Origin: Deltaproteobacteria bacterium
Lineage (GTDB): Bacteria > Myxococcota_A > UBA9160 > SZUA-336
Length of the DNA: 64,000 bases
Assembly: GCA_029261925.1 (NCBI GenBank)
Contig: JAJDAJ010000093.1
Location: 1 to 64,000 of the forward strand
Direction: 5' to 3'
The position numbers and the translations under genes are program-made. The notes under the pieces are model-generated. The model had not been told where the DNA came from. It searched no databases and saw only the letters and a program-made list of their open reading frames with translations. Shown one piece after another: positions 2 through 62,348 of this stretch (position 1 is its first letter; every line of letters starts with the position of its first letter).

Positions 2-1054
2 GACTTCGATGGCGATCAGATTGCTGATGGTCTGGACAACTGTCCACAGGTCACCAACCCGGATCAGTTCGATGCTGATGAAGACGGAGTGGGCGATGCT
101 TGCAACGACGGCGACGACCTCGACGGCGACGAGTGGTCCGACACCCTCGACAACTGCCCGAGCGACCCAAACCCGCTTCAAGAGGACGCCGACGGCGACC
201 GGATCGGCGACATCTGCGACCCGTTTCCGAGCGACCCCGACAACGAACAAGCCCAGTGCGAGCAAGACCTGGGGATATGCGTCATCGACTTCGACCAGTG
301 CGACACGGACCTGCTCACGAGCCAGACTGATCTCGCGCTCTCCGAGACCAACCTGAACGTCGCCCTGGTGAACCTGGACATGTGCACCCTGGGCCTGCCG
401 CTGTTCCTGCTAGAGACGGCCGGACTCGGACCCGTCGGCGGCACCAGCGGTGCCGGTCGAGATGTAGACGCAAGCAACTTTGTCGCGGCGCGCTTCGAGG
501 TCCTGGCACCCGTGCGCACCGGGCATGTCGGCGCGCATCTGGCACAGGCACCCGGCGGCGCCACGGGCGAGGTGTTTGCCGGCATCGTTGCTCTCAACGG
601 ACCGACCGACGTGCCAGATTCGTTTGACCTATCGACGCCCGACTTGCTGGGCACCACTCGGATGTTGATTCCCGGCCCCTCCGCGGAGGTGACGGCAGAC
701 CTGAGCCTTACGCTGCAGCCGGGCTGGTACGCCTTCATCATCGGGAGTGGTCTGTTCGGTGCCTCCGGGGAGGCGGTGGCACCGTTCGACAACCCCGAGA
801 TCGGGATGGCTTCGGTCTTCGAGGCGGATCTAGCCGGGACGCCGGAGTGGCAGGAGCGTCCACCGGGGCTCGACATCGCCCCGCGGCTGTTCGTGGGCGT
901 GGAGTCCACGCAGCTCGCCATGTGCGAGGAGGATCTCTCAGCGCTCCAGGCCATCGTGGTCGATGGCAATGGAGACGTGAACGGGGACGGGGTCGTGGAC
1001 ATTCTGGATACGACTCTGATCCGGCGATCGGTCGCAGGTGCGCCAGTGCCATAG
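2..1054 (+). CDS. Secreted thrombospondin type-3 repeat protein with dockerin-like tail (5' end outside window)
   Basis: The reading frame is open from the first bases, so the N-terminus lies outside the window. Calcium-binding thrombospondin type-3 repeats (D-x-D-x-D-G and DNCP motifs) fill the first ~85 visible residues. Next comes a short heptad-like stretch with regularly spaced Cys and repeated T-D-L units, probably a disulfide-bonded coil. A ~170-residue domain follows (about bases 401-915) that recurs at the end of the next gene. The last 30 residues hold a dockerin-type calcium loop ([12 protein letters not shown]) and then the stop. TSP3 repeats are extracellular, so export is expected, but the signal peptide is not visible. 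No enzymatic motif is seen. A role in surface or matrix assembly is inference. The next gene lies 94 bases downstream in the same direction and is clearly related. Confidence 0.85.
401..915 (+). repeat. Duplicated ~170-residue beta-rich domain, copy 1
   Basis: This protein-level repeat reappears near the end of the neighbouring gene (about 3700-4202). Shared landmarks in order are a Gly-rich GP(V/L)G opening, a V(F)(A/G)(A/G)IVAL segment, SFDLST, LxPGWYA, GSGLFGA and AVAPFxNPEIG. No known family is recognised. It looks like a compact beta-sandwich. Confidence 0.7.
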
Positions 1055-1148: not shown

Positions 1149-4100
1149 ATGCGTGCTCTGCTCGTGTTGGTGGTGGTGTTTCTGAGCCTGCGTGCCTCGA
1201 TCGCACTAGCAGGTGCGTTCCTCAGCATCGATGCACCATCCGGCACCACGTTCTTGCCTCTCAACGCTGGGGGGCTCACATACAACCCCGTAGGCGACCC
1301 AGACAATTGTCTACTGACCGGCGCATCTGGGTGCTCCAACAGCTCCCGAGACATCGTCCTCTTCTACTTCCGCAATGAAGGCAACCAACCCGTAGACCGA
1401 ATTGACCTTCAGTTTTCGCCAGCAGGGTTCGGCGGCTTGGAGTTCGGCTATTACTCTGACTCTCCGGGAATTGCCGTACCCGCCTCCGCCTCTCAAGCGG
1501 CGCCCTCCGGGACCCTGTTTTTCGATCCGCCTATCCTTCCCGGGGTCCTGTCGAAACTCCTATGGGTGGCGAGACTCGAAGGAAACTTGCAGCTGGGCGG
1601 AGGTCAGACGGTTGCGCTGTCCGCCAGCGGCGCCCAGGGCTTCGTCACTTCTGCAACGCCGCTGACCGCTCCCGCCACCCTCGTCCAATTCGGTGCGGCA
1701 TTGCTTCCTGGTGACATAGTCGTTGTGGATATAGGCGCGGGCTCTGCGTTCGGCATACCCTCGAAGGTCATTCACGTCGACCCGCTGACGGGCGACCAGG
1801 CTCTGATCACGGCGGGTGGCTTCCTCGACCACTCAATCGGAGTCGCCGTCGACACCAACGGCGAGATTTTTGTGGTGAACCACGAGGCTGGTACTGGTGC
1901 CTGGGTCGTCCGAATCGATGCGGAGACTGGCAATCAAACTCCATTCACAACGGAGGGACTGCTAAGAGGCTTTGCCATCGTGATAGATGCTAACGGTACG
2001 ATCTTCGTTAGCGACGAACTTCTGGGTCTCTTCGCTCTAGACCGAGACAATGGGACACCCACACTCGTCTCTCCTGCCAGCGGAATCCACGGGATCGCAG
2101 TCGCACCCAATGGAGACATCCTCGCAGTCCTCTGGAGCGGAGAGCAGAACCAAATCCTGCGCATCGATCCAGCGAGCGGATCCCAATCTCTTGTCTCCCA
2201 GGAGGGGCTCCTCAATGCTCCAGTTGGAATCGCTGTCGATGCCTCAGGAAGCATCTTCGTAACAAATGGATCGAACTCCTCCATCGGAAGTTACATTATC
2301 AAGATCGATGGCACTACGAGTGAGCAGACAGTTGTTTACGATCCGGGTCCGACCTATGTCAGAGCGCTCCTCGCCATCGATGCCAACGAGCAACTGATCG
2401 CTCCAAATCAGCACTTCTCACTGGATCCGCGTGAGTCTGGAATCATATCGGTTGATCCGCAGACCGGTGCAGCGAGTGAAGTAGCGCGAGGTGGTCAGTT
2501 CTTCGACGCGGTGGGCGTCGCCGTGTTTGATCCACAGGATGCGGACGGGGACGGGGTTCTAGACTCGATGGACAATTGCCCACTTGCACCCAACGCCGAT
2601 CAGTCAAACGTTGACCAGGATGACCTCGGTGATGCCTGCGACAACTGCCCGACCACAGACAACCCAAACCAGCTTGACGCCGACGGGGACGGAGTCGGTG
2701 ATGCCTGCAACGACACAGACGATTTCGACAGCGACGAATGGTCCGACCTTCTCGACAACTGCCCAGATGTATCCAACGCACCCCAAGCCGACATCGACAG
2801 CGATGGGGTGGGGGACGCCTGCGACCCATGCTCAGACCAGGATGGAGATGGGTTCGGTGATCCTGGCCTGCCTGCTAGCGGATGCATGGTAGATAACTGC
2901 CCTGCTGAGCCCAATGCGGACCAGCTAGATGATGACATCGATGGGCTCGGTAACGCCTGCGATAGCTGTGTGGACGTACCCAATCCGCTCCAGGCCGATG
3001 CAGATGGCGACCTTCTCGGAGATTCCTGTGACAACTGTCCTGGGGAACCCAATGGACTCCAGGAGAACAATGACGGCGACGGACTCGGCGATGCCTGCGA
3101 CTTGGACGACGACAACGACGGAATCGATGACGTGACCGACGTGTGTCCGCTGGTCGCCGATACCGTGCAGACCGACACGGACGCCGACGGGACGGGCGAT
3201 GCCTGTAACGACGCCGAGGATGCAGATGGCGACGAGTGGGCCGACATCCTGGACAACTGCCCAAACAGAGCGAACCCATCGCAGGAAGACACCGACGGTG
3301 ACGGAGTAGGCGATGCCTGCAACGACGCCGACGATTTCGATGGAGACGAGTGGTCTGATGGGCTGGATAATTGCCCGATGGACTTCAATGCGGCGCAGGT
3401 AGAGAGCGACTCCGACGGGACCGGAGACGCATGCGATCTGTGCCCCGACTACCCATCGGCTGGTGACGATTTCGACGGGAACGGGATCGGCAACGAGTGC
3501 GAATGTGGGGACCAGACCCAGGACGGGATCGTCAACGTGGGCGACATCCTCCTGATCAACCTCGCCATCTTCGACCAGGTCCCCGTGAGCCCGCTCTGCG
3601 ACGCGAACAACGACGGCCTCTGTAACATTGGGGACATCCTCGCGGTCAATGCGAAGCTCTTCGGCGCGGAGGCTTACTGCGAGCGATACCCACCCCCGGT
3701 CTACTTGCTCATGACCGGCGAGTTGGGCCCGCTCGGAGCGACTGACGGCGCCGGCAAACCGGTGGACGCGGCGACCCTACGCGGTGCCCGCTTCGAGATC
3801 ACGGAGGCCACCACGACGAGGTCCATCACGGCTGTGATCGCACAGGCGATCGGAGGCGCTCCGGGGCAGGTATTCGGCGCCATCGTTGCCCTGGATGGGC
3901 CGGACGACTTTCCCGAGTCCTTCGACCTGTCCACCAGCGACGTGCTCGGCTGGAGGCTGCTACCGATCCCCACTGCCTCCAACGAGGTGTCGGCGGGGCT
4001 GGGAGTCGCACTGGAGCCGGGGTGGTATGCCCTGGTTCTTGGGAGCGGCTTGTTCGGGGCGGCTGGCGAGGCCGTGGCACCGTTCCAGAACCCCGAGATC

Positions 4101-4205
4101 GGCACCGCGTCGCTGTTCAGGGGCGATGTCGGGGCGGGTGTCTGGGAGGACCGGCAGCCCGATGGGCCCGCGTTCGTCTCCCGCATGCTGGTGCGGGGCA
4201 ACTAG
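1149..4205 (+). CDS. Secreted beta-propeller / TSP3-repeat / double-EF-hand protein
   Basis: The product is 1018 residues if translation starts at ATG 1149. A GGAG-type ribosome site precedes that ATG, and it opens directly into a signal peptide ([21 protein letters not shown]). A longer in-frame reading from 1038 would bury this signal. Domains in order: an N-terminal beta domain (~20-185); NHL/SMP-30-like propeller repeats (~190-455, recurring IxVDPxTG and GIAVxxNG units); roughly ten thrombospondin type-3 repeats (~460-780); a 67-residue Cys-framed double EF-hand module (~784-850); and a ~165-residue C-terminal domain shared with the gene upstream. The protein is probably extracellular and calcium-stabilised. 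No catalytic residues were identified. The tandem relationship with the previous gene suggests duplication and domain shuffling. Confidence 0.85.
3498..3698 (+). repeat. 67-residue Cys-framed double EF-hand module, copy 1
   Basis: This is the coding sequence for CECGDQ...DG..N..DIL, then SPLCD.N.DGLCN..DIL, then NAK.FGA.AYC..YP. The same module, with the same 67-residue length, ends the gene at 59500-62145 and the remnant at 11148-11573. Here it is internal, followed by one more domain. Two DxNxDG calcium loops are framed by conserved cysteines. It resembles type-I dockerin repeats but has its own Cys pattern. Confidence 0.75.
3700..4202 (+). repeat. Duplicated ~170-residue beta-rich domain, copy 2
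   Basis: This is the second copy of the domain at 401-915. It shares SFDLST, LEPGWYA, GSGLFGA and [11 protein letters not shown] at matching spacing. It forms the extreme C-terminus of its protein, whereas copy 1 is followed by a dockerin loop. Confidence 0.7.
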
Positions 4206-11147: not shown

Positions 11148-11351
11148 TCAGTGCGACGGGTACCTCGAGCAGAAGGCATCCACGCCGAAGATCTTCGCGT
11201 TGGCGCCGAGGATGTCGGCAACGTTGCACTCGCCATCCTCGTTGGTGTCGCACAGGGCGCTGGCCGCGGCGAGCTCGAAGAGCACGTCGTTGATCGCGAG
11301 GATATCGGACACGTTGACGGTGCCGTCGCCGTTCTGGTCCCCGCACTCGCA
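11148..11351 (-). repeat. 67-residue Cys-framed double EF-hand module, copy 2
   Basis: It starts at CECGDQNGDGTVNVSDIL, has LCDTNEDGECNVADIL in the middle and ends in AFCSRYPSH plus stop. It has the same length, Cys spacing and NAKIFG landmark as the copies at 3498-3698 and 59500-59703. It sits in a gene that no longer has a start. Confidence 0.75.
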
Positions 11352-11573
11352 CTCGTCGCCGATGCCGTTGCCGTCGGTGTCGGAGTTGTCGGCCGAGGCG
11401 TGCTGTGGGCAGAGGTCCTCCGGATCGGGAATCCCATCCCCATCTCCGTCGCCGGCTCCCGCCGAAGGGTGAGGAAGCGAGTAGTCGAACCCCGAAGTCG
11501 AATCGACCGTGAAGTCCGCAACCGGCGCACCCTGATCGTCCAGAACTGCATCGAAGCCCAGCCCCGACGGGAG
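11148..11573 (-). pseudogene. Headless remnant of a secreted calcium-repeat protein
   Basis: The minus-strand frame between in-frame stops at 11574-11576 and 11148-11150 encodes ~141 residues with no ATG, GTG or TTG start. It reads GFDAVLDDQGAPVADF, a D/G-rich calcium repeat (GDGDGDGIPDPEDLCP), then DTDGNGIGDECECGDQ. It ends with the same 67-residue module that terminates the gene at 59500-62145. The missing N-terminal part is replaced by the end of the monooxygenase gene, whose stop lies 21 bases away. This is the C-terminal stub of a once-larger secreted protein, cut by rearrangement. Confidence 0.7.
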
Positions 11574-11594: not shown

Positions 11595-13589
11595 TCACTC
11601 CACCATCAGGTCTTCCCCGAAGCGTGGTTGCACATCGCTGGCCAGCGCCTCGGGATCCCCTTTCCGATCGTTCCCGGAGCTCTGCGACGGATCGCGCAGC
11701 CAGGTCCAGATCCTGCGCACGTCGATCGGGCAGTTGGTCGCCGAGCGCCCGGACGCGTTGGTGTAGTAGTTGTGCGCGCGCGGGTCCTTGTAGATCATGA
11801 GCGCCTCGTCCCGGTCCACCTCGGCGTTGTAGCGCCAGTAGGCATCGAGGGAGACGTCGATCGTCTTCTTCCCGCTCGTGATCAGCTCGCCGATGCACTG
11901 GAGCGCGAACCGGGTGACGAGCTCCTCGAGATCCACGATCTGCAGGCCACCGAAGTTGTTCGTGTTCGGTCCGTAGATCATGAACAGATTCGGGAACCCC
12001 GGCAGCATCGTGCCGAGGTAGGCGCGGGCGCCGTCCTTCTCCCAGAGCTCCTCGGCGCGCTGGCCGCCTCGCCCGCGGATCTCCATCGGCCACAGGAAGT
12101 CGTTGGCCTTGAACCCGGTGGCATAGACGATGACGTCGACGGGGTGCTCGACGCCACCCTCCACCTCGATCCCCTCGGGCGTGATCCTCCGGATCCCGTC
12201 CGTGACCAGGGTGACGTCGTCGCGCAGCAGCGTGTCGTAGATGCAGTCGCTCGAATCGACGATGATGGGCCGCGCCGAGTACGGCGGTGCGACCGGAGTC
12301 ATCTTCTCGATGAGGTCCGGGTGGCCCGCGAGCTTGCTGCGGATGAACTCCAGCCGCTGCTCCAGGACCTTCTTGTTGCGCGCGCTCCTCGCGTGCGGAT
12401 CGCTGAACCCCGGATCGATGCGCAGGACCTGCTGCGCGTTCCGCGGCCCCGCGAGCCAGCTCAGGCGCAATCGCATGAAGTTCGTCATGTACGGGAAGCA
12501 GCGGTCCAGCCAGTTCACCTGTGGCGGAAGCTCGTCGAGATAGCCCGGCGTGTCGAAGCACCAGTTCGGCGTGCGCTGGAACAGGAGCGTGTGCTCCGCG
12601 AGCTTCGCCAGCTCCGGCGTCATCTGGTACCCCGTGGCTCCGGTGCCGATCACCGCGACCCGCTTGCCTGCGAGATCGAGGTCGGCCGGCCAGCGGGCCG
12701 TGTGGAAGGAGGGACCCTCGAAGCGGTCCATGCCCTCGATGTCCGGCATCTGCGGGCGCGACAGGAATCCCACGCTGGCGATCACGGCGTTCGCGCGGCG
12801 GATGTCCAGGCCGGCGGGGCCCTCGGCCGTGATCTCCCAGACGCCGGCGGCCTCGTCCCAGACGATCGACCGCACCTCGGTGTCGAACGTGATGTCCCGG
12901 CGCAGGTCGAACTCCTCGGCCACCCAGCTGAAGTACCGCATGTTCTCGGACTGCGGACAGAACGCGTTGGGATAGCCGAAGTCGACGCCGTACAGGTGCG
13001 TGTAGGTGCGGCTCGTCGAGTCGACTCGCGCACCGGGGTAGCGGTTCTCGTACCACGTGCCTCCGACGTCGGCGTTCTTCTCGATCACGAAGTACGGGAT
13101 CCCGGCGTGCTGCAGCTGGACGGCGGCGTTCAGGCCTCCCATGCCCGCGCCGATCACCGCCACCGTGAACTCCTCCAGATCCTCCTCGGGAGGTGGCTCG
13201 TGCCAGACGAGGCCCCGCGCCCACGGGTCCAGCGCCAGCTGCTCCACCCACAGCTCCAGCTCGGATGGCGGGATGTCGACTCCGGCAGTCAGGCCGAGGC
13301 TGCGCGGCAGGCGGTCCGGCTTGCCACAGGGGATGTCCGGTGCTCCCTGGTCCCGATGGGACTTCAGGAAGGCGGCCGCCCTGGACCGGAGCAGCTCCAG
13401 GTCGTCCGGATCCGAGACCGTCACGGTCTCGAAGATCATGGCGGAGCTCTCCGTGAGCCGCGTGTCCGCGACGCTCTCGTCGCCCGTGAGCTGATAGAGA
13501 AGCCCGCGCAGGACCATGGGGTCGGCATACTTCACCGCGTCATCGATGGTCGCATCGCTTGCGGCGAGCAATTCGGATCGTCCGGCCAT
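11595..13589 (-). CDS. Baeyer-Villiger monooxygenase, HAPMO-like with N-terminal extension
   Basis: The product is 664 residues from the ATG at 13589 (MAGRSELLAASDATIDDAV). The upstream in-frame extension overlaps the ThDP gene and was rejected. It has a ~140-residue N-terminal extension as in 4-hydroxyacetophenone monooxygenase. Next are the FAD Rossmann motif (VAVIGAGMGGL, ~141), GGTWYENRYPGARVD, the BVMO fingerprint FEGPSFHTARWP (~289) and the NADPH Rossmann motif (VAVIGTGATG, ~308). The family inserts an oxygen atom next to a ketone, giving esters or lactones, using FAD, NADPH and O2. The ThDP-enzyme gene upstream ends 41 bases before it on the same strand, so the two are probably one operon. 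The ketone substrate is not known. Confidence 0.9.
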   Translation of the reverse strand: MAGRSELLAASDATIDDAVKYADPMVLRGLLYQLTGDESVADTRLTESSAMIFETVTVSDPDDLELLRSRAAAFLKSHRDQGAPDIPCGKPDRLPRSLGLTAGVDIPPSELELWVEQLALDPWARGLVWHEPPPEEDLEEFTVAVIGAGMGGLNAAVQLQHAGIPYFVIEKNADVGGTWYENRYPGARVDSTSRTYTHLYGVDFGYPNAFCPQSENMRYFSWVAEEFDLRRDITFDTEVRSIVWDEAAGVWEITAEGPAGLDIRRANAVIASVGFLSRPQMPDIEGMDRFEGPSFHTARWPADLDLAGKRVAVIGTGATGYQMTPELAKLAEHTLLFQRTPNWCFDTPGYLDELPPQVNWLDRCFPYMTNFMRLRLSWLAGPRNAQQVLRIDPGFSDPHARSARNKKVLEQRLEFIRSKLAGHPDLIEKMTPVAPPYSARPIIVDSSDCIYDTLLRDDVTLVTDGIRRITPEGIEVEGGVEHPVDVIVYATGFKANDFLWPMEIRGRGGQRAEELWEKDGARAYLGTMLPGFPNLFMIYGPNTNNFGGLQIVDLEELVTRFALQCIGELITSGKKTIDVSLDAYWRYNAEVDRDEALMIYKDPRAHNYYTNASGRSATNCPIDVRRIWTWLRDPSQSSGNDRKGDPEALASDVQPRFGEDLMVE

Positions 13590-13630
13590 CTGCTCGATCT
13601 CCCTGCGGGTGGCTACGGCGGAGCCCGGAC

Positions 13631-15358
13631 CTATTGCGTGCCCTCGGCGTACCAGGTGCGGAACCGCTCGTACTTCGGCATCTCCTCGGAGTTGGCCTTG
13701 GGGTCGATCGGTACGTGGATCACCGCCGGGCCCCCGCTCGCGTAGGCTCGGGCGATGGCCGCGCCGAGCTCTCCCGCCTTGTCGACGTACTCGCCGTGGC
13801 AGCCGAAGCCCTCGCCGATCTTGTCGAAGCGGACCTTGTCGGACCAGTGCGTGCCCGTCTCGGCCGTTCCCGGGCCGAAGGTGCGCTTGTAGACGCCCAC
13901 CTCGAGGCCCCACTGGAAGTCCACGCCGACGACGCAGACCAGCGGCAGGTTCTTCCGCACCGCGACCTCGAGCTCGGCGATGTGGAACAGGAACGAGGAG
14001 TCCGAGGTGATCAGCATGCCGGGCCGGACCTTTCCGGTCGCGGCCTGGTCGGCGAGCATGGCGCCGGTCGCGTACGGCAGTCCCGTTCCGATGTGGCCGA
14101 AGTTCTGGTTCCAGATCACGTCATGCGGCTTGCACTGCGAGTAGGTCCACTGGAAGATCACCGTGGCGCCGCCGTCGCGGATCAGGATGCCGTCCTCGGG
14201 GAAAGCCCTGGTGGCCTCGACGACGAAGCGCGAGGTGTGCATCGGCGCGCCGGAGCCATCGCCGTGGCTGAGCGATTCCTCGGCGATCTCGGCGAGCTCC
14301 GCCGCCCCGTCCCTCATGAAGGCCTCGAGGCCCGGCGCGGTCGCACGCGGCGTACCGAGCGCGCGCGAGAGCTGCGGCACGACGGCGCGCAGGTCGCCGA
14401 CCAGAGGCACGTCGATCGGCCGGTTGACGCCGATCGCGGTCGGATCCTGCTGCACGTAGATCCACTTGCGGTCGGCCTCCTTCTCGAACCAGTGGCGCCA
14501 GCGACCGTAGTGCAGCGGCTCGCCCAGCTCGGTGCCGAGCGCGAGGACGACGTCGGAGTCCTCGACGGCACGGATGGAGGCCTCGGAGAAGACGTACTGG
14601 AAGGTACGATCCTCCAGCCCGGGAATGTACGAGGTGCCGCCCGAGGTCTGGATCACCGGGCACTGCATCAGGTCCGCCAGCTCCTTGACCGCGGCGCCGC
14701 TCCTCGAGGTGTGCACGGCGTGGCCGACGAGCAGGATCGGATTCTCGGCGTCGCGGATCAGCTGCGCGGCCTCGGCGATGCGGTCGCCATCTGCACCCTG
14801 GTTCACCAGGCGGTATCGGTGCGGGGGCAGGACCTCGGGCAGGTCGAGCTCCTCGACAATGACGTGGCTCGGATACTCGATGTAGCTCGGGCCGGGCGTG
14901 CCCGACATCGAGACACGGATCGCCTCCTGGATGATCTCGTCGGTCTGGTCGGCATACTCGATCGAGCCCGCGTACTTGACCGAATCCTCGATCATCGGCT
15001 CCTGGCGTACGAACTGGATGCGGCCGCGGCGCACGCGCCGCTCGGTGACGCGAGCGCGCTGGCCGCCGAGGAAGATGACGGGCGAGTTCTCGACCTTGCA
15101 GCACTGGATCGCGGGCATGGCATTGGCCATGCCCGGACCGAGCGTACCGATGGCGAGACCGGGCTTGCCGGTGATGCGCGAGGCGGCCTCCGCCATGAAA
15201 CCGGCGGCTGCCTCATGGTGCGGCGAGACGACGGTCCAGCCGCGAGCCTCGGCCTCAAGGAACAGATGTACGAAGTTCGGATCCGGAATGCCGAACAGCG
15301 TGTTGATGCCCTCGGCCTCGAACAGGTCCAGAATGCGCTTGTAGACAGGTACGCCCAT
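13631..15358 (-). CDS. Thiamine-diphosphate-dependent enzyme, acetolactate synthase-like
   Basis: The product is 575 residues from the ATG at 15358 (MGVPVYKRILDLFEAEG). It has the three-domain ThDP fold: the N-terminal Pyr domain with the cofactor-activating Glu (HHEAAAGFMAEA, ~45), a central domain (~190-330) and a C-terminal PP domain. Where homologues carry GDG...NN for Mg-diphosphate binding, this protein has TSDSSFLFHIAELEVAV (~448), so the first Gly of GDG is replaced and the second is Ser. The reaction could be acetolactate synthase, benzoylformate decarboxylase or benzaldehyde lyase type. The regulatory small subunit of anabolic acetohydroxyacid synthase is absent, and the partner gene is a BVMO, so a catabolic lyase or decarboxylase role is more likely. 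Confidence 0.82.
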   Translation of the reverse strand: MGVPVYKRILDLFEAEGINTLFGIPDPNFVHLFLEAEARGWTVVSPHHEAAAGFMAEAASRITGKPGLAIGTLGPGMANAMPAIQCCKVENSPVIFLGGQRARVTERRVRRGRIQFVRQEPMIEDSVKYAGSIEYADQTDEIIQEAIRVSMSGTPGPSYIEYPSHVIVEELDLPEVLPPHRYRLVNQGADGDRIAEAAQLIRDAENPILLVGHAVHTSRSGAAVKELADLMQCPVIQTSGGTSYIPGLEDRTFQYVFSEASIRAVEDSDVVLALGTELGEPLHYGRWRHWFEKEADRKWIYVQQDPTAIGVNRPIDVPLVGDLRAVVPQLSRALGTPRATAPGLEAFMRDGAAELAEIAEESLSHGDGSGAPMHTSRFVVEATRAFPEDGILIRDGGATVIFQWTYSQCKPHDVIWNQNFGHIGTGLPYATGAMLADQAATGKVRPGMLITSDSSFLFHIAELEVAVRKNLPLVCVVGVDFQWGLEVGVYKRTFGPGTAETGTHWSDKVRFDKIGEGFGCHGEYVDKAGELGAAIARAYASGGPAVIHVPIDPKANSEEMPKYERFRTWYAEGTQ

Positions 15359-59499: not shown

Positions 59500-59703
59500 T
59501 CACGGGCTTGGGTACTCCGCGCAGTATGCCGGAGCCCCGAAGATCTTCGCGTTCACTCCGAGGATGTCGCTCACGTTGCAGAGCGCATCCTCGTTGGTGT
59601 CACAGAGCGGACTGGCGGTCTCTTGCCCGAAGATGGCGCTGACGATCGCGAGGATGTCGACGATGTCCACCCTGCCGTCACCGTTCTGATCTCCACACTC
59701 GCA
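59500..59703 (-). repeat. 67-residue Cys-framed double EF-hand module, copy 3
   Basis: It is C-terminal in its protein: CECGDQNGDGRVDIVDIL, LCDTNEDALCNVSDIL, NAKIFGAPAYCAEYPSP and stop. It matches the modules at 3498-3698 and 11148-11351 over its full length. The preceding 20 residues (DLC...DSDGNGIGNA) are conserved too. Confidence 0.78.
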
Positions 59704-62145
59704 CGCATTCCCGATGCCGTTGCCATCGGAATCAGCGTTGTCGGCGGACGCGTGGTCGGCGCACAGGTCGCAGCTGTCTCCGATCAGATCGACATCGCGG
59801 TCGTCCTGGTCCTCGTTGAAGTCGACCGGGCAGTTGTCGAGCGTGTCCGTCCACCCGTCGCCGTCATCATCCGGGTCGCAGACGTTACCCAGTCCGTCCA
59901 TGTCGTCGTCGTCCTGCTCGGGGTTCCCGGCATTCATGCAGTTGTCGACCACGTCTGCGTGGCCGTCGAGGTCCACGTCGCAGGGATCGGCGCTTCCGAT
60001 CCAGGCATCGATGACCGAGGTTCCCTGAGCATCGACCAGGCTCTTGGCGAGAGGGGGCATGGCGCCCAGACCCAGCGCGTGGGCGCGAAGGGAGAGCACG
60101 GAACTCTCCGGTGCCCCGGGGGTCACGAGCGTCGCGCCGCTCACGCCCAGGTCGCCGAGATCGGGTGCCACGTTGCAGAGAGTCATTGGAGCTTCGAAGC
60201 GCAGGTCGATGGCCGCCACCGTCGGCCCTCCGGGCTGGTGGCAGTTCGCGCAGTTCGCGTCCATGTAGGCCTTGGCGCGGACTCCCGCCTGCACGGTGCC
60301 GTCCAGGAGATCCGGCAGCGCTGGGTGGTCGCTGGCCGGCGATCCCAGGGGCTCATCGAACATCCCGATGGCGTCCAGGGTGGCGAGCTGGCTGGCAAGG
60401 AGACCCGTCGACGGATACAGGAAGTCGCGGTTCATCTGCGTGGTCTTGGGACCGAGGGCCCGGCTGGCCGCCTCCGTGTGACAGCCCAGACACTGCGGTC
60501 GGCTGGGGTACGACCAGGTCTGGCCGCCGGCCAAGAGCCGCGCCTTGCCAGCGGGAAGCAGAGTGGCCGCGGTCTGTTCCTCGTTCCACTCGTAGGTGTA
60601 GCCCGCCCATCGGCCATCGTCGTGGTGGATCAGGAAGCGGGTCTCGATGAGCTGGTCGTCGATGCTGAAGTTCTTGATCAGCACCGTGCCTTCCGGGAGG
60701 TCCCAGTCTCCGTTTGCGAGGATCTCGATCGTCTCTCCGTCGGGCAGCGCGAGCCAGCGCTGCTTGGCCGCGCCGTCGGACCACAACGGCATGTTCACAT
60801 CGAAGGGGATCACGCCGGACGCCGGTACGAGCGGGCTGAGGCTGTCGAAGCATCCGGTATCGGCCAGCGTCTGGGGGAAGTCCGTGGGTGGCGCCGGCTC
60901 GGCCCTGACGATCCTGGCCAGCGCCCCGTCTCGCAGGGCGATGATCTCGCCGTCGGCGTCTTCCGCGAAGTTCCGGATGGCGCCGACTCCGGAGATCAAC
61001 AGCTCCGGGCTGGGGGCGCCGAGCTCGTCATGGAACAGGCCCCAGATGTTGCTGAGCGTGTCGCCGTAGATCAGCGTTCCCTCCAGCTCGGGAATCGCGC
61101 TGCCGCGATAGACGAATCCCGCGATCGCGGTGCGCATCTCTCCGCCCGGCAGCGAGTAGTGGACGTGTTCGACGACCGGTGAGATGAAGCTGGGGTTGTT
61201 GCAGCCGCTTCCCAGGCAGACGCTTCCCTCGAGGGGCGGCCAGCCATAGTTGCCCCCCTTTTCGATCAGGTTGATCTCCTCGCGCACGGTGCTTCCGACA
61301 TCGCCAGCCCACAGCTCGCCGGTCCCGCGGTCGAAGTGGAAGCTCCATGGATTCCGCAGTCCCCAGGCATAGAGCTCGGGCGCGCCGCCTCCGCTCGCAA
61401 AGGGGTTGTCGGGAGGGATGGCGTACGGTGTACCCCCATCCACGTCCAGTCGAACGATGCCGCCGAGGATCGTGCTCGTGTCCTGTGCGTTGGGATTGCC
61501 GTAGGGGTTGGAGCCCTCGCCGAGGCTGACGTAGAGATAGCCATCGGGGCCAAACGCGACACTGCCGCCCTGGTGGTGACGATCGGGTTGCGGAACCGCG
61601 AGGAGGTTGAGCTCGCTCTGTCGATCCAGCGTCAGCCCACCGTCGAATGACGTGTACCGGTTGACGTACAGGGTGAGGACCGTACCAGCAACGATGGGGC
61701 CCGCGGTGAAGCTCACGTAGGCATGGCCGTTGTTTGCGAAGTCGGGATGGAGGGCAATACCGAGTACACCGGCTTCGCTCGAGATCTCCACGACATCGCT
61801 CAGATCGAGCAGGGTGGTGATGCTGGGACTGGAGCCAGGGTTGTCGAGGACCGTGAACAGCAGGCCGATATCGTCGGGTCGCCAGTTTTCTCCCTTGAGG
61901 GTCAGGTACCAGCGCCCGGGATCGGTCGGCGACGGGACAGCCGATGTGGTGCTCGTGAATCCCTGCCCGTTGAAGATGTTCTCGAGGGCGAGGTTGATGC
62001 TGGCCACGGGAGCCGGTGGGTCCGGCGCCAGGCAGGTGGTGTTGGGCGGGCGTGCAGGCAGACCCGATAGCGGGGCGCCGGCTCGCCCCGTCGGGCCCGT
62101 CAGAATCACCAGTACAGCTGCAATCGAGATGAGATCTGTTCGCAT
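59500..62145 (-). CDS. Sugar-dehydrogenase-like propeller / SO2930-type diheme / TSP3 fusion protein
   Basis: The product is 881 residues from the ATG at 62145 (MRTDLISIAAVLVILTG, signal peptide). Domains in order: glucose/sorbosone dehydrogenase-like PQQ propeller (~60-420, with HHQGGSVAFGPDGYLYVSLG and YAWGLRNPWSFHFD); a region like the SO2930-type diheme cytochromes (~430-700, with haem c sites CLGCH and CANCH); TSP3 calcium repeats (~725-810); and the 67-residue Cys-framed double EF-hand tail. It should be an extracellular or surface-attached quinoprotein dehydrogenase that carries its own electron-transfer haems. Such a fusion is unusual, and the tail is shared with other loci in this window. 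Confidence 0.87.
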   Translation of the reverse strand: MRTDLISIAAVLVILTGPTGRAGAPLSGLPARPPNTTCLAPDPPAPVASINLALENIFNGQGFTSTTSAVPSPTDPGRWYLTLKGENWRPDDIGLLFTVLDNPGSSPSITTLLDLSDVVEISSEAGVLGIALHPDFANNGHAYVSFTAGPIVAGTVLTLYVNRYTSFDGGLTLDRQSELNLLAVPQPDRHHQGGSVAFGPDGYLYVSLGEGSNPYGNPNAQDTSTILGGIVRLDVDGGTPYAIPPDNPFASGGGAPELYAWGLRNPWSFHFDRGTGELWAGDVGSTVREEINLIEKGGNYGWPPLEGSVCLGSGCNNPSFISPVVEHVHYSLPGGEMRTAIAGFVYRGSAIPELEGTLIYGDTLSNIWGLFHDELGAPSPELLISGVGAIRNFAEDADGEIIALRDGALARIVRAEPAPPTDFPQTLADTGCFDSLSPLVPASGVIPFDVNMPLWSDGAAKQRWLALPDGETIEILANGDWDLPEGTVLIKNFSIDDQLIETRFLIHHDDGRWAGYTYEWNEEQTAATLLPAGKARLLAGGQTWSYPSRPQCLGCHTEAASRALGPKTTQMNRDFLYPSTGLLASQLATLDAIGMFDEPLGSPASDHPALPDLLDGTVQAGVRAKAYMDANCANCHQPGGPTVAAIDLRFEAPMTLCNVAPDLGDLGVSGATLVTPGAPESSVLSLRAHALGLGAMPPLAKSLVDAQGTSVIDAWIGSADPCDVDLDGHADVVDNCMNAGNPEQDDDDMDGLGNVCDPDDDGDGWTDTLDNCPVDFNEDQDDRDVDLIGDSCDLCADHASADNADSDGNGIGNACECGDQNGDGRVDIVDILAIVSAIFGQETASPLCDTNEDALCNVSDILGVNAKIFGAPAYCAEYPSP

Positions 62146-62348
62146 GGCAGTCGGCACCCGCTGGCAGGCATGGGCCAGAGATGACCCTACATGAATCCAC
62201 CTGCTCGATCCCCGGTATATTCGACTCCTGCCGAGCTGCTTCGAGCGGCAGGGTCGGTGGAGCCGCCGTACTCGCTCGGAAACGTGCGAGCGGGTTTCCC
62301 CGGAGAAGCGCTCGGGTCAGGCGTTCGACCCTCCGCTCCCCGGCTGCT

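Follow-up and report, generated by a model that had tools for sequence, protein, structure and literature searches.

We found that the short cysteine-framed tail seen three times in the window, the 64,000-nucleotide stretch of DNA analyzed here, recurs on dozens of unrelated exported proteins of the same genome, mostly at the C-terminus, and has a predicted dockerin fold to which a cysteine frame and a C-terminal segment have been added. We see a roughly even chance that it serves as a Ca2+-dependent docking or retention module whose partner is no recognizable cohesin.

The initial annotation had reported a 67-residue Cys-framed block at three loci of the window, and its presence there held up: the translations agree with the description, the cysteines (C1, C3, C34, C42, and C61) occupy identical positions in the three tails, and each tail has two DxNxDG-type EF-hand-type loops. 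Copy 1 is on the plus strand, and the placement of copies 2 and 3 was corrected to the minus strand. The features of the window are as follows.

968..1051, plus strand: single dockerin loop closing the gene at 2-1054, which the window edge truncates
1149..4205, plus strand: host gene of tail copy 1, with signal peptide, NHL/propeller-like body, TSP3 array, tail, and C-terminal domain
2532..3497, plus strand: TSP3 repeat array ahead of tail copy 1 (PF02412, 139.8 bits)
3498..3692, plus strand: tail copy 1, a Cys-framed dockerin of class A; a 168-residue domain comes after it, not the stop
3699..4202, plus strand: domain 3' of tail copy 1, with 55% identity over 155 residues to a domain of the neighboring gene
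11148..11573, minus strand: open frame with tail copy 2 and one TSP3 repeat (141 codons), without start codon or signal peptide
11151..11351, minus strand: class A tail copy 2, running up to the stop at 11148-11150
59500..62157, minus strand: host gene of tail copy 3, with glucose/sorbosone dehydrogenase, SO2930-type diheme cytochrome c, TSP3, and tail
59506..59703, minus strand: tail copy 3, class A, one residue short of the stop

As had been described, two of the three tails (copies 2 and 3) run to the stop at the extreme C-terminus, and copy 1 continues into a further domain. The upstream domains are indeed unrelated for copies 1 and 3, and the unknown body that had been assigned to copy 2 does not exist. 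The likely start of the copy 1 host is the ATG at 1149, which has a GGAGG ahead of it; the copy 3 host is exported, has a possible start at the ATG at 62145, and matches TSP3 (PF02412) at 40.8 bits. Since ATG, GTG, and TTG are all absent ahead of tail copy 2, and a flavin monooxygenase-type gene (11595-13913, minus strand) ends directly ahead of its frame, the frame at 11148-11573 is best read as an orphan 3' remnant, the end of a lost gene. The loop of the gene ending at 1054 had been called a different kind, and it is: this single loop, when cut out, is recognized by Pfam Dockerin_1 at 27.9 bits against a cutoff of 22.9. More than one kind of tail therefore coexists, as had been proposed, namely class A, a two-loop class B elsewhere in the genome, and the single-loop form. 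We also observed that a domain of about 160 residues (window 390-940 and 3699-4202, 55% identity) occurs in both adjacent genes; it stands ahead of the single dockerin loop in one gene and behind the tail in the other and has no Pfam or NCBIfam name.

Several comparisons place the class A tail with the dockerins, which contradicts the earlier view of it as something separate. It contains an EF-type Ca loop in duplicate, with a helix behind each copy; the halves are 46% identical in register, compared to 9% when shuffled, and the Ca-coordinating D/N positions are conserved. Pfam Dockerin_1 (PF00404) matched 34 of 48 members at an E value of ≤0.01 (best, 2.7e-7), and many members score under the Pfam cutoff. 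A check on whether the block merges with ordinary type I dockerins gave a divided answer for the isolated window copies, with two over the cutoff of 22.9 bits (25.2 and 23.8 bits) and one under it (16.3 bits). In a PDB profile search, dockerins ranked first, weakly (best E value, 0.007). An AlphaFold2 model of window copy 3 with 32 relatives (mean pLDDT of 72, and 86 to 95 over most of the tail) places the helices at H77-87 and H107-117, and in a Foldseek search with it dockerin entries occupied ranks 1 to 18, with target TM scores mostly of 0.6 to 0.77 and all E values ≥0.03. From EF-loop geometry, C3 and C61 probably form a clasp joining both ends of the domain, and C34 and C42 probably form a staple in loop 2.

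We next give the census of the window's own genome (G000), a metagenome-assembled genome (MAG) of 5.5 Mb in 111 contigs that is 95.3% complete with 5% estimated contamination. Three loci proved far too few: a profile built from 48 copies gave 74 matches at an E value of ≤1e-5, about 65 of them whole or nearly whole. The tail lies within 5 residues of the protein end in 41 of 65 cases and within 20 residues in 52; 5 tails precede a further large domain, and 8 precede a shorter stretch, mostly a Cys-rich repeat. By blastp, the bodies upstream form 43 clusters, of which 35 have a single member; they include subtilases, reprolysin and thermolysin-type proteases, GSDH, FG-GAP, and laminin-G proteins. 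Thus, the proposal of a portable tail that many unrelated exported proteins carry, mostly at the C-terminus, is sustained, with at least 43 bodies. By a simple hydropathy rule, 55 of 64 hosts have a signal-peptide-like N-terminus; a lipobox is present in 2 of the 64 and other membrane anchors in hardly any. Because these exported hosts almost never have a lipobox or another membrane anchor, the tail is the obvious candidate to retain them.

A TSP3-type repeat stands directly ahead of 63 of the 65 tails, a count in which a regular expression caught 56 and the remaining 9 were judged by eye, all but two being TSP3-like. The first Cys of the tail is part of the GDxC end of this repeat. The 67-residue block is thus real, but because nearly all tails directly follow such a repeat, the natural unit is about 110 residues, including the preceding TSP3 repeat. 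Past the second loop the copies share a conserved C-terminal extension, NAKIFGxxxYCxRYP, in which YCxRYP sits 0 to 5 residues ahead of the stop in most copies. In one place (L068:3736-4177, contig C63), two unrelated genes converge and their class A tails are about 46 bases apart, stops included. Damaged or orphan copies also occur (the copy at 11148, C100:3987, and C22:55429). Contamination of the MAG was rejected as a source of the tails, whose loci match the tetranucleotide profile of the window (mean r of 0.970) and are spread over dozens of contigs.

Across 780 pairs of tails, amino acid identity averages 67%, and silent differences are near saturation (pS of 0.475, compared to 0.491 expected for random synonymous codons). 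DNA similarity 3' of the stop is 0.305, compared to 0.3045 for shuffled sequence. Because silent sites are saturated at 67% identity and the DNA similarity ends at the stop codon, the tails are old copies kept alike by selection at the protein level and not by recent copying. On the same grounds we rejected a mobile cassette, and a phage or plasmid origin was rejected because tblastn gave no match in the phage or plasmid collection and none in viral contigs. Domain shuffling, in which tails spread across gene ends by recombination and are carried passively with no present function, could account for the orphan and damaged copies named above; it was already disfavored by the strong amino acid conservation at saturated silent sites, and we give it next to no weight.

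Lineage specificity had been suggested for this tail, and class A is indeed nearly private to its own genome: among 379 genomes of the phylum it is absent except for three weak matches in G005, a member of the same family whose DNA is identical to that of Deltaproteobacteria bacterium CSMAG_947, and we found none in the named public genomes of the GTDB 220 collection. A broad profile gave 92 matches in the window's own genome and at most 18 in any of 59 relatives, the class relatives being mostly MAGs that are 58 to 99% complete. The same profile found zero tails in the same-genus genome G001 (89% complete), and the tail system is therefore dispensable at the genus level. Related genomes have their own Cys-framed dockerin tails behind TSP3 repeats, with the same cysteine pattern and different sequences; carriers include uncultured Deltaproteobacteria, Myxococcota, some Gammaproteobacteria, and others. 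Two of the genomes from the same class, G011 and G039, have DNA identical to that of Glo_12 and HyVt-433, respectively.

Class B tails (CQCGD ... LRxxLAG ... GLxPGxxxxC) have two loops and occur in the same genome as class A, with some contigs carrying both. Identity is 0.60 within class A, 0.27 between A and B, and 0.39 within class B of this genome, whose class B tails are 0.34 to 0.41 identical to those of other genomes. Class B is an older, shared class beside the nearly private class A. In a tree of 123 tails, the 57 class A sequences group without an outsider, and the deep split is poorly supported because the domain is short. A cyclophilin-like protein (L212, C98:24947-25156) has a class B tail that no TSP3 repeat precedes.

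The position of the tails raises the main rival to a docking module, that of a structural cap. Because nearly every tail is directly behind a TSP3 repeat, the tail may simply cap a calcium rod: the dockerin-like EF-loop pair would close the calcium-filled TSP3 rod and shield the C-terminus from unfolding or proteases, and no partner would be involved. The 63 of 65 tails that share the last Cys of the repeat ahead of them are consistent with this, as are the lack of a cohesin in the genome, which like the TSP3 association speaks against docking, and the five domains found 3' of tails, which imply that a free C-terminus is unneeded. However, 67% identity across 43 unrelated bodies is more than a cap needs, the genome has two sharply distinct classes, the class B tail of the cyclophilin-like protein stands without such a repeat, and at least one TSP3 protein encoded in the genome, L207, has no dockerin at its end. 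Since A and B are so different and coexist on the same contigs, two binding specificities would explain them better than capping alone, and we consider capping unlikely.

We also found that 11 tail genes are directly upstream of, and on the same strand as, a gene for a TonB-dependent receptor, out of 29 such receptors in total. Their locations are as follows.

All 11 tail-receptor pairs: G000 contigs C48, C5, C37 (three), C11, C73, C59, C4, C91, and C70
Example pairs: L048:1442-6170, L051:6824-11457, and L057:2152-6629

The binomial P value for this pairing (1.6e-16) overstates the number of independent events, because most of the paired hosts belong to one large, expanded Cys-rich paralogous family, which is found in none of the 59 relatives. 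The receptor companions have signal peptides without a lipobox; should they act with the receptor at the outer membrane, another feature would have to keep them there, and for this the tail is the candidate. In this receptor-companion family, a myxo-type Cys-rich acidic repeat comes after the tail at the C-termini of L048, L051, L054, and L061, and it matches TIGR02232 in two of those tested. Apart from the TonB receptor pairing, clustering of neighbor genes gave no candidate receptor.

To identify a partner, we searched for cohesins, since a co-occurring cohesin-like protein had been put forward. The cohesin model PF00963 had no match at an E value of ≤1 in the window's own genome and none at ≤0.001 in the ten further members of its family that were searched. 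It matched in 9 of 60 genomes of the class, which shows that the model works at this distance, and tails were present in 4 of the 9 genomes with cohesin matches versus 30 of the 51 without (Fisher P = 0.48). The cohesin partner was therefore rejected, being absent from the genome and the family and having no association with tails in the class. A strict cohesin-dockerin system would need a cohesin that is too diverged for Pfam or is encoded on a contig that the 95% complete MAG lacks. The dockerin fold and its repeat symmetry agree with such a system, and a non-cellulosomal cohesin-dockerin complex with TSP3 repeats, the "planctosome," has been proposed for freshwater Planctomycetes (PMC6461901). 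Against this, PF00963 was negative in the genome and the ten family members though positive in nine genomes of the class, and a scaffoldin with several cohesins would be expected beside about 65 dockerins, so we regard it as very unlikely.

The tail had also been proposed as a sortase-type sorting tag. As an export or sorting signal read by a machine, like a type IX CTD or a type II secretion determinant, it would explain the strong C-terminal bias and the conserved YCxRYP one to five residues before the stop. The tail C-terminus, however, lacks the combination of signature, membrane helix, and basic cluster, and five internal tails have large domains behind them. A search for processing enzymes, which covered myxosortase (MrtX) and sortases, gave no match to the MrtX model in the genome and a single sortase, of class GN (TIGR03784). 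Because its dedicated target (TIGR03788) is encoded in the adjacent gene, this sortase is not the tail-processing enzyme, and the link was rejected; sorting by such a machine is, in our estimate, quite unlikely. The class GN sortase and its target are at L218:6146-9084 (contig C26), and no sortase was found in the seven related genomes tested.

Returning to a docking or retention module, we propose that tailed proteins would exit by the Sec pathway and that outside, in an oxidizing, calcium-containing environment, the two EF-type loops would take up Ca2+ and the cysteines would pair as disulfides. The folded tail would then attach to one shared partner, located on the outer surface or in its matrix, and dozens of otherwise soluble proteins (proteases, dehydrogenases, propellers, and TonB receptor companions) would be retained at the cell. 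Besides the negative cohesin searches and the TSP3 repeat ahead of nearly every tail, the five tails with a further domain and the eight with a shorter stretch behind them speak against this reading, as does the lack of tails in G001. A more specific form, in which the tail is a dockerin-type plug with a non-cohesin socket and the uncultured lineage keeps its own disulfide-stapled dockerin on about 65 exported proteins beside the older class, each with its own surface receptor, is possible, and we hold it tentatively.

Dockerins are the textbook partners of cohesins. About 65 similar, strongly selected dockerin tails in a genome with no detectable cohesin therefore make a sharp test case for dockerin binding. 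Because related genomes carry their own tail types, some internally very alike, tail and receptor may co-evolve lineage by lineage; this could be followed through MAGs, and such pairs would supply new orthogonal, disulfide-stabilized protein-docking pairs.

Compared to known systems, the dockerin fold is familiar, and what is new is the five-Cys frame, the TSP3 lead-in, the C-terminal extension, and a cohesin that was looked for and not found. Like type I dockerins (PF00404), the tail has duplicated segments of Ca loop and helix over about 60 to 70 residues, and like those of cellulosomes it is mostly C-terminal on secreted proteins. Unlike cellulosomal dockerins, it has the cysteine frame, a nearly obligatory TSP3 repeat ahead, and the NAKIFGxxxYCxRYP extension, and it is on mostly non-CAZyme hosts in a genome without a detectable cohesin. 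With the planctosome (PMC6461901) it shares dockerins on non-cellulolytic secreted proteins alongside TSP3 repeats; the planctosome encodes cohesins, whereas here none is detectable and the tails are numerous and nearly species-private. With MYXO-CTERM/myxosortase (PMC11980579) and other CTERM tags it shares the plan of one C-terminal module, with an invariant Cys, that recurs across dozens of unrelated surface proteins. In contrast to the MYXO-CTERM system (PMC11980579), the genome has no MrtX match and the tail is a folded, predicted Ca-binding domain without a membrane helix or Arg cluster. Finally, MtsC-type TSP3 proteins (NCBIfam NF047638) also have a TSP3 array near the C-terminus; the window proteins score below the cutoff of that family and have a dockerin 3' of the repeats where the MtsC type has MYXO-CTERM.
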